A stretch of 64,000 bases of DNA, taken from assembly GCA_023078555.1 (NCBI GenBank), contig CM041198.1, positions 10,215,836 through 10,279,835 of the forward strand, read 5' to 3'. Positions 14,469-41,631 of this stretch are shown in pieces. The DNA is from Ulva prolifera (taxonomy: Eukaryota; Chlorophyta; Ulvophyceae; Ulvales; Ulvaceae). A model generated the notes under the pieces. It ran no database searches, had not been told where the DNA came from, and worked only from the letters and a program-made list of their open reading frames with translations. A program made the position numbers and the translations under genes. The first letter of the stretch is position 1, and every line of letters starts with the position of its first letter.

Positions 14469-16845
14469 ATGTTTTGTTGGTTTCTGCAATCTATCGTGAA
14501 TGAGTTCTGGGCTCGTACGCTGCTTTGCTTACGGCTTCCATTTTGTAGGCACAGGCAGTTTCGGCCGTGTAAGACTTCCGTAGACAGACGCCACGTCTCT
14601 GATATAACAGGTCATGCAGCTTGTCACAACGCGGCATCTGGTGCGGAACAGCCAGCAGCGTTCACGCCCGCAGAACGCATCAAAGAAGCTGTTGGCGAAT
14701 GTGTAGCTGTCGTGCGGAGCGGCAGTCAGAAATTCGTACCAATGATTATGCTATTCTTTTCAATGGCTTTCATCAATACGCTGCTAGATAACTTGAAAGA
14801 TACTTTGATATTCACGCAGGCGACAGGTGGAGGGGCTCATGTTGTCCCGTGGCTGCAAGGTGGGACCCCTTAGATCATCAGCCCCTCTGTGATTGCTGTA
14901 TGTGACTACGCCACAACATCAACATCATCATGTGTCTATAGATGCGTTGCTGCGTGCTGCCCAGACTTCATCTGCTACTCTCTGGTGCCATGTGGTGATT
15001 GCATACAATCGATCGTCTCTGTTAAAAAGCCGTGTTGATCGCGTGAACATGCCCTTCCCATATGTTTATATGTCAGTATTTGGCACTTGGCCTCCTGAGA
15101 CGTATCGAACGCAGCCTTCCCTGTCACACTTGGTCCATGGTACTGCTGCCGATCTGTTGTCATCGTGTTCCACTCTCGCAGCACCTGCACAAATGCACAG
15201 CAGGTCTAGGTGTGGGTCACATTGATGCAATCTGCAGCCGATCACACCTGTTGAACTGATGATGTCCGCTGTTGTCGCAAGCAGACCTGACTGCAACTAT
15301 GCCAACTCGGATAGCAGGTCTGGGGAGTCCATGCCTAGCACACTGAGTACTGATCTGGCTGTCCTTGCAGCATCGGAGTTGCTTGATGCAGCTATAAAGC
15401 TGCAGCACAATTCGCTGTCGTCTTACTCGCATGTCCCTTCATGTGCAGTGTATGGAGTCCTCCCAAGCTCATTGATATTTTTGACCTTATTCAACCAGAT
15501 GGCGGTGATGTTTTCCCGGCGGCAGATGTTCAACATCATTGTCTCGTGCTTCATGGGATTCATTGCCATATTCTCTATAGCCCTGTTTCCCAACACAGCA
15601 ACACTTCATCCCACGGCATTCTGTGAATCTCTACAGCAACACCTTCCAAATGGGTTTTCAGGAATCGTAGCTGTGATCAACAATTGGTCATTCGGCTTAT
15701 TCTATTGTTTTGCCGAGCTGTGGGGAGATGTGTGTCTCAGCCTCCTTTTCTGGAGCTTGGCCAACGAGATTACCTCATTGAAAGATGCAGCAGTCATTTA
15801 TCCCCTGTTTGGGATCGGGGCAAATGTTGCGCAGGTCTGCGCAGGGCAGGTGCTCAAGGCAGTAGGGACGGGGGGCACCACAGTAGGATATGTATCGCAA
15901 ATGCAGTCCCTTTGCACGCTGGTGCTTGTTCTGGGGGGATCTGTTATGGTTTTGCACGAGGTTATATGCAGACGCATTTCGTCTGCAACCACAGTACGGG
16001 GTTCTAACGACGTGGCTGCTGTTGATGAGGCTCCAAACGCTGATGGTACATTGACAAAAGATATTACAGCGATTACACTGAATATCAAAGAAGGTGACAC
16101 AGCAGCTGCTGTACGCTCTTTGCATGTGCAAGTGCAGCCGCAGGCAGATGCGTTTTCTCGAGCACAACCTCCGAGCAACATTGTGCACCAAGATGAAAAT
16201 CCAGCAATGAAGACATCACACAAAAAAGGAGAAGAAATACACACAAAGAAGAAAAATAAGAAGAAAGCGATGTCTTTCCAGGATGCGTTGAGGTACAGCC
16301 TACGGCAATTTGAACCCTGGAAGTTTCTGTGTGGACGTTCCATAATTGTCCGTGTGAAAGTGTGCTAGAACGAAGATGCCTCTGATGGCCTTTTACAGGT
16401 GCTCGCTGTGCAGGTACTGCTGGACTAATTCCAGCATCCGGTGCTTAGCGATAATGGGAATCGCTCAAGGATTAGCGTCGAATACGCTGGAATATGCGTG
16501 GAAACTGCATTTATCTCAATTCTGTCCAACGTCCCAGGAGTTTACGTCATTTCTTGGAGATGTCGCATCCTATACAGGAGTTGTTACTGTCATGATGATG
16601 CTGGTCGCACCGACTTGTTTTAAATTACTCGGCTGGCGTAGGACTGCGCGAGCAACGCCTAACTTCCTGCTGTATGCTGGAGTACCCTTCTTTTTTATGT
16701 GCATCGCCTACCAGGTTATGGTGCAGATGCCACGATTCGGTCATCTGGCCCAACCCATGCTCTGCACTCTGGCGGTGCGCTGATTCCTAACTTGATACTT
16801 GTCATGATTTTACAAAGGCCCTAGACCAGGATGGTTTCAAGGCAG

Positions 16846-16933
<88 letters not shown>

Positions 16934-21200: not shown

Positions 21201-23675
21201 TGGTATTGCTGTGGTCGTGTCCATGCGCTGGCATTCTGAGTTACATACTGGCCATCCTGCACCAAGACATTGCTCATGTCATTTTCTGCTGAGGCGGCCA
21301 CATGGACATATCATGCGCATGTGGTTGGAATTCTGCATATACGCTTCAACAGTGCATCAAAGTGGTTGACCCACGCCTACGTATGAAGAGGCTTGCCCCA
21401 CACATGGCACATTGCAGCATTCAGAAATCATTACTACTCGGGTCACTGCACGAGCACATGCTTCCGCAGAATTATTTCACAGGTATTGGAATGGCCTTAC
21501 CCGCTGTGGCAAGTATGCATGGCCATGCATGCCAGCTGCGTCTGGGGCATGGCCGAGCAAATGTACTGGGGACACCGCCGAGCCTGAACATGTCTGTGGC
21601 GGCACCTGAAGCGTCCTGCCATCACCCGCTCCATACGCTGCACCCATACAACGGGCAGCGTGTGAAGCATGGGTGCCGACATTTTGTTTTGCAGCTTGGT
21701 TGAAGAAGCTGGCCTCATCTCCGCCAGAGAATCCACCTCCACCGGTGTGGTCGCCCGCAGCCGAACTGCCACCAAAGTATGCACGGCCGGCAGCCTCGTG
21801 CTCAGCCACAGAATCTGGTAGGGATGCAGGCCACGCAGAAGACTCAGCTGGCTCTGCAAAGCCCACGCCTGCTTTTGCTGGCCCCATGCAACTGCCACTG
21901 CCATGCAGCACTGGTGCAACTGGGCCTGTAACAAGCGGCTCGGGCACATTAGGTGAGCTGGCATGCAGCCACTTGACTGTTTGTGGTGCATGTGGCGCCT
22001 CCTTGGCTACAAGTACATGCTCGGACGCTGAAAACGAGTCGAAAAAGGACCGTCCACCAGGACCACCGGCATCATCCGCTCGTGTGCACATGTGTGCTGC
22101 TGGTTCATCCACGAAATCAGCTACAGCCCCGCTTCCACTTGGATCCTCGCCTACACCACCCTCCGGCTGAAGGTCCCACTGTTCCTCTCCTTGTGATTCA
22201 AGATGTTTCACTTCCGTGGAGTATATTGCAGACCATGCTCCCATTGCCTCATCGTAGTAGTACTGCCCACACGCACTCACCCAGCAACCCCACTCCTCGC
22301 ACCAGAAAGGCTCCCCTTCGCCCACTTGCCCTTGTGCAATGCCAGCCCAGTCCGCCTCCGCCGGGAAAGCACTCTCGTCTGTCCAAGGGGACAGTTCTGG
22401 TGCTGTGCCATGGGCACCTTCGGCCTGCTCAGCGCCCTGCCTTCGCATGTCGGGACCCGCATGTGGACTGACTGCAGCATCTGCATCATAAGGCACGGTT
22501 GCGTGGCCCTCCGACCACCCCGCTTGATCGAAAAAGCTACCCACTGCTGCGGCAGCAGAATCATCAGCCTGAAGACCCATGTCCCATGCTGCTCGCCATG
22601 TGGCCTTGGCGGCTGAGGAGAAGCCTGGGTCCAGCTGGTCAGCTGCGGGCTGCACAGCGGGCGCATGCTCACTCTGGTCTTGAGCAACGAAGGCTGCCTT
22701 CTGGGCTGCAGCATCATTCGAGCCAGGATCCAGGTTCGCCCATGTCGTCCGCGGCCCGCCTTCATCACCTGCTGCCCGTCGTTGCACAAGCTCTGTAATG
22801 TGGTCAGAGCTGGCTGTACATGTTGCAACACTCCCCCAGGTGCTGTGATGTGCCGTAACGCGATTATCCGGCGGGGCGGGCAGGTTGATGCCGCTGCCGA
22901 AACCTCCTGCGGCCACACCCTGGCCCGGGGGGGCTGCGCCCGGGGGATGTTGCGCGTCAGAAGATGGCGCACTGGCCCGTGTGTTGATACTTATACCTGC
23001 TGAAAAGCTATCCTCATCCCCAAAGAACGAAGATTGTCCCTCATTGGGTTTGCGAAAGTGCGCATCTGATGTGTGCCAGCTTGGCAATACGGTCTTCATG
23101 CCCTCAGCAGATGCCAATACAGGAGCTCCAGCCTCAGCAGCCATGGTGTGGGATGCCTCAAATTCAAGGGCAGCCGGTCCCCTGACCGTTGCTTGAACTG
23201 GAGGAGCAGCTTTACGCTGTGCACTGCAGCTATCAAACGTTACTGCATGTGTCCTTGAACCCCGGCCACGATCCGGTGGCTCATCGTGTGCCTCAGGCCC
23301 CAATGCCTCTGCACCGAACGGCCGCATCTGATGGTGTGTATCTGCAGGACTTTCTTGTATGTGCTGTGGGGGACACAAGCCTGCCACAGCCATACCGCTG
23401 ACCGCTTCGCTCCCATCCAGCGCAAGCATAGCGTGCTGTGCACCAAGCTCAGCAGAGACATTGCTTGACACAATGCCTGCACTTTCGTCGTGCTGTCTAA
23501 AACAAGAGACTTGTGAGGTTGGGAAGGTGGCAGAGCACTGGGTTGATGCACTGTGTGGTGGGCGACTGTCAGTCGAGCGAGGGAATGGTGACAACGTAGC
23601 CCTGTCCATGCCGCCATCTGCCAGTGCGGCATGTAGTGGCATCCCTGCCTCCCTCAAACTGACTGGGAGCTCCTT
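18257..23675 (-). CDS. SEC16: Sec16 COPII coat scaffold protein, 5' end lost at assembly gap
   Basis: Sec16 organises ER exit sites and COPII coat assembly. Exons read (minus strand): from the gap to 21501, about 21281 (or 21257) to 20489, 20234-19506, 19274-18455, 18315-18257; the junctions checked keep frame. The first exon encodes over 700 residues of disordered, acidic, Phe/Asp-rich sequence containing a Trp/Tyr motif (EEWGCWVSACGQYYYDEAMG) like the tyrosine-rich motif of plant Sec16. Exon 2 begins the central conserved domain with GRPPRSLAVFGFGGRCCLF, followed by the helical ACE1-like solenoid (ALLMDGQRAAALTAATEAQ|VWPIALAIAQ, LVTYAHVCYILAGKPLG). The last exons are Ser/Pro-rich and include NKGWFGGIADKLLP, like the C-terminal Sec23-binding region. 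No reliable start codon is visible: the frame is open into the run of N. Confidence 0.88.
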
Positions 23676-23775
23676 NNNNNNNNNNNNNNNNNNNNNNNNN
23701 NNNNNNNNNNNNNNNNNNNNNNNNNNNNNNNNNNNNNNNNNNNNNNNNNNNNNNNNNNNNNNNNNNNNNNNNNNN
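23676..23775. other. Assembly gap (100 N)
   Basis: Exactly 100 undetermined bases, the usual placeholder for a gap of unknown length. It interrupts the 5' part or promoter of Sec16 and borders one arm of an inverted repeat, which may explain why assembly failed here. Confidence 0.98.
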
Positions 23776-23781
23776 ACTGTG

Positions 23782-24025
23782 TTCCTGGCCTACGGAGCGT
23801 GAGGCTTGTCGCGCCTGGCGAATCAGGCTGCAGACCGTCGAGATCATGTATATGTTAGTTCAGTTAGTTATTTCCAGGCCCGTGATGCCTATGGCTGCCC
23901 GTGTGCGCACCTGCAGCTCACCAAGCCAGCATGGCCCTCTGGCCCAGCCAGTAGGCGAAACCAGACGCCTGGCCAGTCTACATGTGTGCGGCTTGGATAA
24001 TATTTCTTTCCACTGCAGGGTGCCA
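23782..24025 (+). repeat. Left arm of a ~230-bp inverted repeat
   Basis: About 240 bp that match the reverse complement of 26405-26634. Both ends share GGCCTACGGAGCGTGA. The core (23924-23983 against 26461-26520) is nearly identical over 60 bp, while the flanks are about 70-80 percent alike. The arm starts 7 bp after the assembly gap, so its true left end is unknown. It could be a foldback or TIR-type element, or two oppositely oriented copies of one dispersed repeat. Confidence 0.75.
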
Positions 24026-40847: not shown

Positions 40848-41631
40848 TCATTCCGCTCCGCCCAGCATTATTGCCTCCATTTCGCGTTCAGTTAGAATCC
40901 TACGGGGCACAAAAGCTGTAACGGCCTGGTTCCCTGGAGGAGAGTTCTGCTCTCGAGTATTCATCCGCATTTCAACAGCTCGGGGAGATTCCTGTGAGCT
41001 GTGACTTCGGTCAATGTATGTCTGCTGATCAACGGCAGGCATGGCACTGATCACATGACCATCGCTCGTCCTGCGTGGTGGAAAGCGTATTCTCGCTTTG
41101 TGCCCCCTCAGCGTCTTGTCTGACACTTCAGATGCTGCGTCTGCTAAGGCGTCGTAGGCCTGTTGATTAGAGCTTTGCACCCCAGGTTGCTGCTTTGACA
41201 TACTAATGCTGTCGTCAACCAATGCAATCAGCTGCCCAATCTGAACAACGTCGTCAGGTTGCACCAGCAATGCTTGTATGACCCCGTACTGTGGAGACCG
41301 CACTTCAATTGAAACCTGAGTTACCGCCATAATTGTTGTTTCAGGGCCGATGCATTATACTTGGTTGCAGCGATGCGAGCTGACACCACACTCACAGGGG
41401 GCATACCTTGTCTGTCTCCAAGGTAAGAATTGGTTCATCTTCTTCGACGGGGTCATGTTGGCGTTTGTGTATTTCGGCGACAGTTCCTTCGGTAATGGAA
41501 TCGCCCATTGATGGAACCACGACGTTCTGCACGAATGCGCACACTGAAGAGTGCAGATACCGAGCGCTGGAGCTATTTCCACCAGCAGACACAGCAATTG
41601 ATCTACATAGTTGATTCAGTTGCCGTAGCAT
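40848..41631 (-). CDS. Lipoyl domain fused to Kgd4/MRPS36-type E3 adaptor (2-oxoglutarate dehydrogenase complex)
   Basis: A 230-residue protein in two exons (41631-41407 and 41315-40848), joined in phase 0 directly after the lipoyl lysine. Residues 1 to about 32 look like a mitochondrial presequence (MLRQLNQLCRSIAV ... ARYLHSS). Residues 34-112 form an E2o-type lipoyl domain: VVVPSMGDSITEGTV, then LTLETDK with K75 as the expected lipoylated residue, then VSIEVRSPQYGVI. A linker follows. The C-terminal part matches the Kgd4/MRPS36 (YMR31) family at both its conserved ends: HKARIRFPPRR (147-157; human MRPS36 has HTPLIRFPDRR) and RRILTEREMEAIMLGGAE at the very end (213-230). There is no acyltransferase core and no classic E3-binding domain. 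Kgd4 tethers E3 to the E2o core, so this protein probably joins the 2-oxoglutarate dehydrogenase complex and brings an extra swinging arm. The domain calls are strong; the combined role is inference. Confidence 0.85.

Follow-up and report, generated by a model that had tools for sequence, protein, structure and literature searches.

The window, a stretch of 64,000 nucleotides of Ulva prolifera DNA, contains a gene whose translation gives a protein of 230 residues (minus strand, 41631..41407 joined to 41315..40848), in which an E2o-type lipoyl domain precedes what we take to be an adaptor of the Kgd4/MRPS36 type. We assign a probability of roughly three in four to the reading that this fusion serves the mitochondrial 2-oxoglutarate dehydrogenase complex as an E3-binding protein. 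The E2o of eukaryotes no longer has the domain that binds E3, a gap that Kgd4/MRPS36 is proposed to fill. From N- to C-terminus the protein runs from a leader through the lipoyl domain (with Lys75) and a linker to both conserved Kgd4/MRPS36 ends, and re-translation reproduced exactly the coordinates, exon boundaries, length and lysine position given by the initial annotation of the window. Its parts are laid out as follows:

41407..41631, minus strand: exon 1 (75 codons), with the start codon, the leader and the lipoyl domain as far as its midpoint at the lipoyl Lys75
41542..41631, minus strand: mitochondrial-like leader, residues 1-30, read by eye (first acidic residue D44; RYLHSS)
41407..41526, minus strand: first half of the lipoyl domain, residues 36-75, ending in ETDK75 (PF00364 match)
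41316..41406, minus strand: intron of 91 bp, GT-AG, phase 0, immediately 3' of the lipoyl lysine codon
40848..41315, minus strand: exon 2, a single open frame with the second lipoyl half, the linker, the Kgd4 part and the stop codon
41211..41315, minus strand: second half of the lipoyl domain, residues 76-110, grouping with E2o lipoyl domains
41109..41210, minus strand: linker, residues 111-144, which differs between relatives
41067..41108, minus strand: Kgd4 N-terminal motif RGHKARIRFPPRRT, residues 145-158, presumed E3-binding segment (role taken from excerpts of PMC9974300)
40851..40895, minus strand: Kgd4 C-terminal motif LTEREMEAIMLGGAE, residues 216-230, presumed anchor on the E2o core (role likewise from excerpts of PMC9974300)

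Both Kgd4 ends named in the initial annotation can be read in the window protein, HKARIRFPPRR at residues 147-157 and REMEAIMLGGAE as the C-terminus directly before the stop codon, and a leader of the LHSS/FHSS type is found in the relatives P0002 and P0015 as well. Elsewhere the window holds a TLC-type ATP/ADP transporter (15226-16365, plus strand; PF03219, 6e-45), probably of the usual plastid type, a perfect GT repeat of 41.5 copies (16850-16932), a stretch of N within 21480-23789 (X in the translation) and, on the low-coordinate side of the fusion gene, two ordinary exons, one of a thymidylate synthase (PF00303, 34408-34950, minus strand) and one of a class-III aminotransferase (PF00202, 38259-38897, plus strand).

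The N-terminal half of the protein had been described as a lipoyl domain with ETDK and Lys75 and with no acyltransferase core behind it, and this description is borne out by our Pfam scan. PF00364 matches residues 36-106 (7.2e-17, 61.4 bits), the lipoyl fold is complete and includes the ETDK lysine of the E2o class, and the window protein matches neither the acyltransferase core (PF00198) nor the PSBD (PF02817). In a tree of 72 lipoyl-domain columns, the fusion domains sit among E2o domains, with two E2-type domains from elsewhere in the Ulva prolifera genome lying outside (99/96). The top two PDB chains by sequence belong to pyruvate dehydrogenase E2, with a run of E2o chains next. For P0010, the relative from Parachlorella, an AF2 model gave ten-residue block means of 82-96 pLDDT over residues 33-106 (pTM 0.38 for the entire model); the first Foldseek match of this model was an integrative model containing ODO2, biotinyl domains scored similarly, and among solved lipoyl domains the E2o one, 1ghj, came closest in fold. 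The lipoyl domain of the fusion is of the E2o/DLST class and probably derived from it. A further lipoyl candidate in the genome, a split lipoyl-like domain on contig C5 (2862643/2862845), was discarded after being read by eye as a biotin carboxyl carrier protein.

As the gene model is a prediction from genomic DNA, one could suppose that a wrong gene model or assembly has united two unrelated genes. The fusion is, however, independent of the intron call, because exon 2 by itself encodes the rear part of the lipoyl domain together with the entire Kgd4 part, and an equal fusion recurs in other genomes, in metagenomes and in records with transcript names. The initial annotation had named separate transcripts for the two exons as one finding that would tell against a fusion. 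Six relatives argue against such a separation: P0053, P0102, P0123, P0141 and P0156 (MMETSP names) and P0089 (TRINITY name) each carry the lipoyl and Kgd4 parts in one open reading frame, and since we take these names to denote transcript projects, one transcript would carry both parts there. An artefact is therefore highly improbable and, in substance, already refuted.

The initial annotation had regarded the fusion as a single case; it instead belongs to a widespread algal protein family. Three protein searches recovered relatives with the whole layout or part of it from the green algae Parachlorella, Micractinium, Apatococcus and Ulva and from the diatoms Thalassiosira, Detonula, Attheya and Conticribra. 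In turn, these searches gave 63 proteins (including many ordinary E2 proteins), 18 proteins and, with the tail profile, 227 matches, of which at most 120 enter the counts below. The sample for these counts comprised 170 proteins plus the window protein (171 in all), with motif patterns devised after inspecting the data. At least 125 of the 171 (124 database proteins and the window protein) have the C-terminal motif near their end, and at least 46 of these 125 hold the lipoyl start, the N-terminal motif and the C-terminal motif; 54 have an upstream pattern of the lipoyl-domain end, and 25 begin too late to judge. Among the matches listed, the 46 complete fusions divide into 15 with an FPPRR-type N-motif (window included) and 31 with an FLGK-type N-motif, P0002 being counted after removal of its intron read-through. 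Named green sources are Parachlorella kessleri, Micractinium, Chlorella ohadii, Apatococcus (two) and Ulva (JGI tag Ulvmu1, which we take to be Ulva mutabilis, with a gene model containing the second lipoyl half only); named diatom sources are Conticribra weissflogii, Thalassiosira rotula, Attheya septentrionalis and Detonula. Land plants are absent from the few named matches, and a pattern scan of prokaryotic and viral collections gave 11 and 30 matches to the C-terminal pattern, respectively, with 0 confirmed relatives. The best candidate for a standalone algal Kgd4 among the 125 proteins with the C-terminal motif is P0097, which may be an exon. Among the matches listed, some relatives are entered in databases as, for instance, 'Lipoyl-binding domain-containing' or 'E2 component', and their precomputed Pfam column has no PF10937. 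The recurrence of the fusion in so many algal sequences is more than chance.

How firmly can the tail be tied to Kgd4/MRPS36? The initial annotation had held that a missing profile match over residues 147-230 would count against this assignment. Pfam's own profile is silent, as PF10937, with a threshold as loose as E<=10, gives no match to the window protein; it also gives none in the genome of the window, nor did it match any of 14 control genomes; relatives and a profile built from algal tails nevertheless link the tail to mammalian MRPS36. PF10937 gives weak matches to 6 of the 37 sequences in alignment A1, the best being Ulva P0004 (E 0.0084; 18.2 bits for a cut-off of 22), and an above-cut-off match, the mark of Kgd4/MRPS36 membership, was found in no algal protein scanned. 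The human MRPS36 sequence, entered by hand, matches PF10937 alone. An HMM of 121 algal tails (42 FPPRR-type and 79 FLGK-type, sorted by N-motif and not by taxonomy) was compared with mouse and human MRPS36 and yeast Kgd4, all three entered by hand: mouse MRPS36 reached 1.2e-6 and human MRPS36 2.1e-5, the best-scoring decoy out of 9999 shuffles reached 0.038, and yeast Kgd4 (0.71) was not separated from these decoys. The FPPRR-type tails alone gave 5.1e-5 for mouse and 2.9e-4 for human MRPS36 against 0.03 for the best shuffle, and the FLGK-type (diatom-type) tails alone separated no known Kgd4 from decoys. The alignment of the algal-tail HMM to human MRPS36 covers both ends, and a profile-profile comparison with hhalign covers 18 C-terminal columns only (E 4e-6, probability 87). 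The two ends are collinear, with I-x-F-P-x-R-R at the N-terminal side and E-M-E-x-I-x-x-G-G-A/P at the C-terminal side, as in Kgd4/MRPS36. On these sequence comparisons, we take the tail to be Kgd4-related, the C-terminal end being its better supported half.

We then turn to the partners that such an adaptor would serve. The genome has its own E2o on contig C6, where six exons join in frame and match PF00364 and PF00198 but not PF02817; a profile search of the genome likewise placed no PF02817 at this locus and found it at four other places, adjoining other E2-type matches. PF16870 (E1o type) occurs at two places and PF02852 (E3-type and related reductases) at four. An E2o without PSBD thus occurs together with the fusion, the combination expected for Kgd4/MRPS36. 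A search of the genome with the tail, the check for a separate Kgd4 that the initial annotation had proposed, returned the fusion gene as the one Kgd4-like locus (next matches at E 2.4 and 3.7); as this search reads exons singly, a diverged, intron-split standalone Kgd4 could escape it. Because E2o has no PSBD and the tail search found a single locus, E2o would need an E3 adaptor and the sole adaptor found has an arm.

The same set of partners bears on whether the fusion serves mainly another complex, be it the branched-chain dehydrogenase, the supply of E3 to glycine cleavage or several of these. E3 is common to several complexes, and contact with the E2o core is deduced from homology to Kgd4 alone; against this, the lipoyl domain of the fusion groups with E2o, and four other E2-type loci of the genome have a PSBD where E2o has none. 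We regard service mainly to another complex, or to several at once, as improbable and retain 2-oxoglutarate dehydrogenase as the preferred partner.

The arm of the fusion is an extra one, because the alga's E2o retains its own lipoyl domain. The initial annotation had proposed looking for a normal DLST elsewhere in the genome: the domain composition of the C6 locus answers to this (PF00364 with PF00198). Its lipoyl domain is diverged, at 39.9 bits to PF00364 the lowest among those compared; ten other proteins with an E2o-like lipoyl domain score 55.9-77.3 bits, in a comparison that is biased because likeness to the lipoyl domain of the fusion was what brought these ten to light. By eye, the E2o domain (C6, L009 2793..1048, minus strand) has two extra residues past the lysine hairpin and carries Asn at a position that is almost always Gly. 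An initial search of the genome showed no lipoyl exon beside the E2o core; the strong proposal that the arm has moved off E2o altogether was dropped, as the C6 locus carries a lipoyl domain split over two exons.

An extra arm is not strictly required where E2o keeps its own, which leaves room for a lipoyl domain that is a vestige or a structural spacer, on an otherwise plain Kgd4 adaptor whose arm stands outside catalysis. In the excerpts of PMC9974300 and PMC10203282, standalone Kgd4/MRPS36 of fungi and animals is described as armless, and the latter contains a hint that additional lipoyl domains of E2o may serve structure; the gene model of P0091 lacks the lipoyl end. Yet the lipoyl lysine is kept in 46 of 46 complete fusions across two distant lineages, and all of them but P0091 (45 of 46) also have the lipoyl end, among the matches listed, and the lipoyl domain of the window protein still reaches 61.4 bits to PF00364. 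We therefore consider a vestige or spacer unlikely, if less so than the two alternatives above, and favor a working arm. P0091 itself, from Chlorella ohadii, reflects either a wrong gene model or a damaged arm.

Whether green algae and diatoms acquired the fusion once or twice was approached with two trees, both built on a short domain with long branches and including several 'E2o' rows that are lipoyl-domain fragments without a core. The first (the 72-column tree) left out 13 ids missed by the lipoyl-domain pattern, then P0019, P0063 and P0042, as well as two incomplete domains of other E2-type loci and then three long or outgroup rows, and used 8 of the 18 diatom-type fusions tried. Here the diatom-type fusions form one clade (97/95) beside two E2o rows, and the green fusions fall together with the E2o of the Ulva prolifera genome (99/96; 98/96 after dropping rows). 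The second tree comprised 14 green-type, 28 diatom-type and 25 E2o rows, leaving out P0091 (for its missing lipoyl-domain end), five duplicates and two E2o without a lipoyl domain. Diatom-type fusions again form one clade (100/99), which together with six E2o rows (98/94) is split from the green fusions and the remainder, and the green fusions again group with the genome's own E2o. Constraining all fusions together cost 15.65 log-likelihood units in the first data set (AU p 0.067) and 17.23 in the second (AU p 0.254). The trees thus suggest separate green and diatom origins, with a single origin not rejected at these AU values. As to introns, the position directly after the lipoyl lysine is suggested, by eye from ORF starts and one read-through, at an equal place in seven green ORFs (P0001, P0002, P0003, P0007, P0013, P0081 and P0082); many diatom-type ORFs, also judged by eye, begin just upstream of the final lipoyl strands, and these starts suggest a different intron site in diatom-type fusions. 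We offer, as a tentative proposal somewhat short of even odds (slightly lowered in view of the weaker AU value of the larger tree), that E3BP-like proteins of 2-oxoglutarate dehydrogenase have two or more separate origins, one among green algae and one among diatoms, each lineage having joined its own E2o lipoyl domain to its own Kgd4, and that in the lineage of the window the arm on Kgd4 may be replacing the more diverged arm of E2o. If two origins are true, they would make, together with PDHX, a repeated convergence on the layout of lipoyl arm, E3 clamp and core anchor.

Published work on Kgd4/MRPS36, together with the architecture, is the basis for the proposed E3BP-like function. The excerpts of PMC9974300 have Kgd4/MRPS36 recruiting E3 to E2o as a proposed substitute for the missing PSBD; those of PMC10203282 name Kgd4 E3BPo and estimate about four copies per 24 E2o. 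Work cited in the excerpted text of PMC8146983 saw no rise in human OGDHC activity upon co-expression of MRPS36. In the fusion, the C-terminal EMEAIMLGGAE segment would dock on the E2o core, the IRFPPRR segment would bind the E3 dimer, and beside E3 the lipoyl arm at the N-terminus would swing on its flexible linker; an arm so placed could shuttle reducing equivalents, and perhaps succinyl groups too, between E3 and the arms that E2o itself carries. The most likely use would be as extra lipoyl arms beside E3 that carry electrons from the E2o arms to E3. We infer that the protein is imported into mitochondria, lipoylated and bound as described, and that its arm takes part in catalysis. The initial annotation had read the protein as a Kgd4 adaptor that gained an arm and thereby came to resemble E3BP in layout; the fusion itself, the one Kgd4 locus, the E2o without PSBD and the lysine kept in every complete fusion support that reading, with function argued from architecture.

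Among the papers listed by searches of the open-access PMC literature, none reported a lipoyl-Kgd4 protein. What appears new is a Kgd4-type adaptor with an added arm that would act like E3BP without being one. If algae did add an arm to the adaptor, the fourth subunit is probably in the reaction path and more than a tether, and nature would have reached the E3BP layout from unrelated parts. The fusion makes the usefulness of an arm beside E3 a testable question, it bears on an enzyme central to respiration in algae of major ecological importance, and its family is overlooked by the usual Kgd4 profile, PF10937.

Among known systems, Kgd4/MRPS36 (PF10937) is likewise small and without a catalytic core and has both conserved ends in equal order, with the same proposed contacts to E3 and the E2o core; the algal form differs by its N-terminal E2o-type arm and variable linker and by being barely recognised by PF10937. 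To our knowledge, known fungal and animal members of Kgd4/MRPS36 have no lipoyl domain. With E2o/DLST the fusion shares the class of its lipoyl domain, but it lacks the PF00198 core, and E2o is a separate gene on contig C6. Kgd4 also lies inside a longer predicted protein in the Chaetomium 'E3BPo' of PMC10203282; its partner there, by contrast, is an unrelated predicted holocytochrome c synthase, the authors call the protein fused and misannotated, and the excerpted text mentions no lipoyl arm. E3BP/PDHX is, like the algal fusion as we read it, an E3 recruiter with its own arm, but E3BP is a paralogue of E2p and has a PSBD as well as an inner domain resembling the acyltransferase, and neither PF02817 nor PF00198 matches the window protein. 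The order of parts in E3BP is lipoyl arm, E3-binding part and core-anchoring part, and that of the algal fusion is identical. On the preferred reading, then, the fusion is analogous and not related to PDHX/E3BP, a protein that would work like E3BP while standing outside its family.
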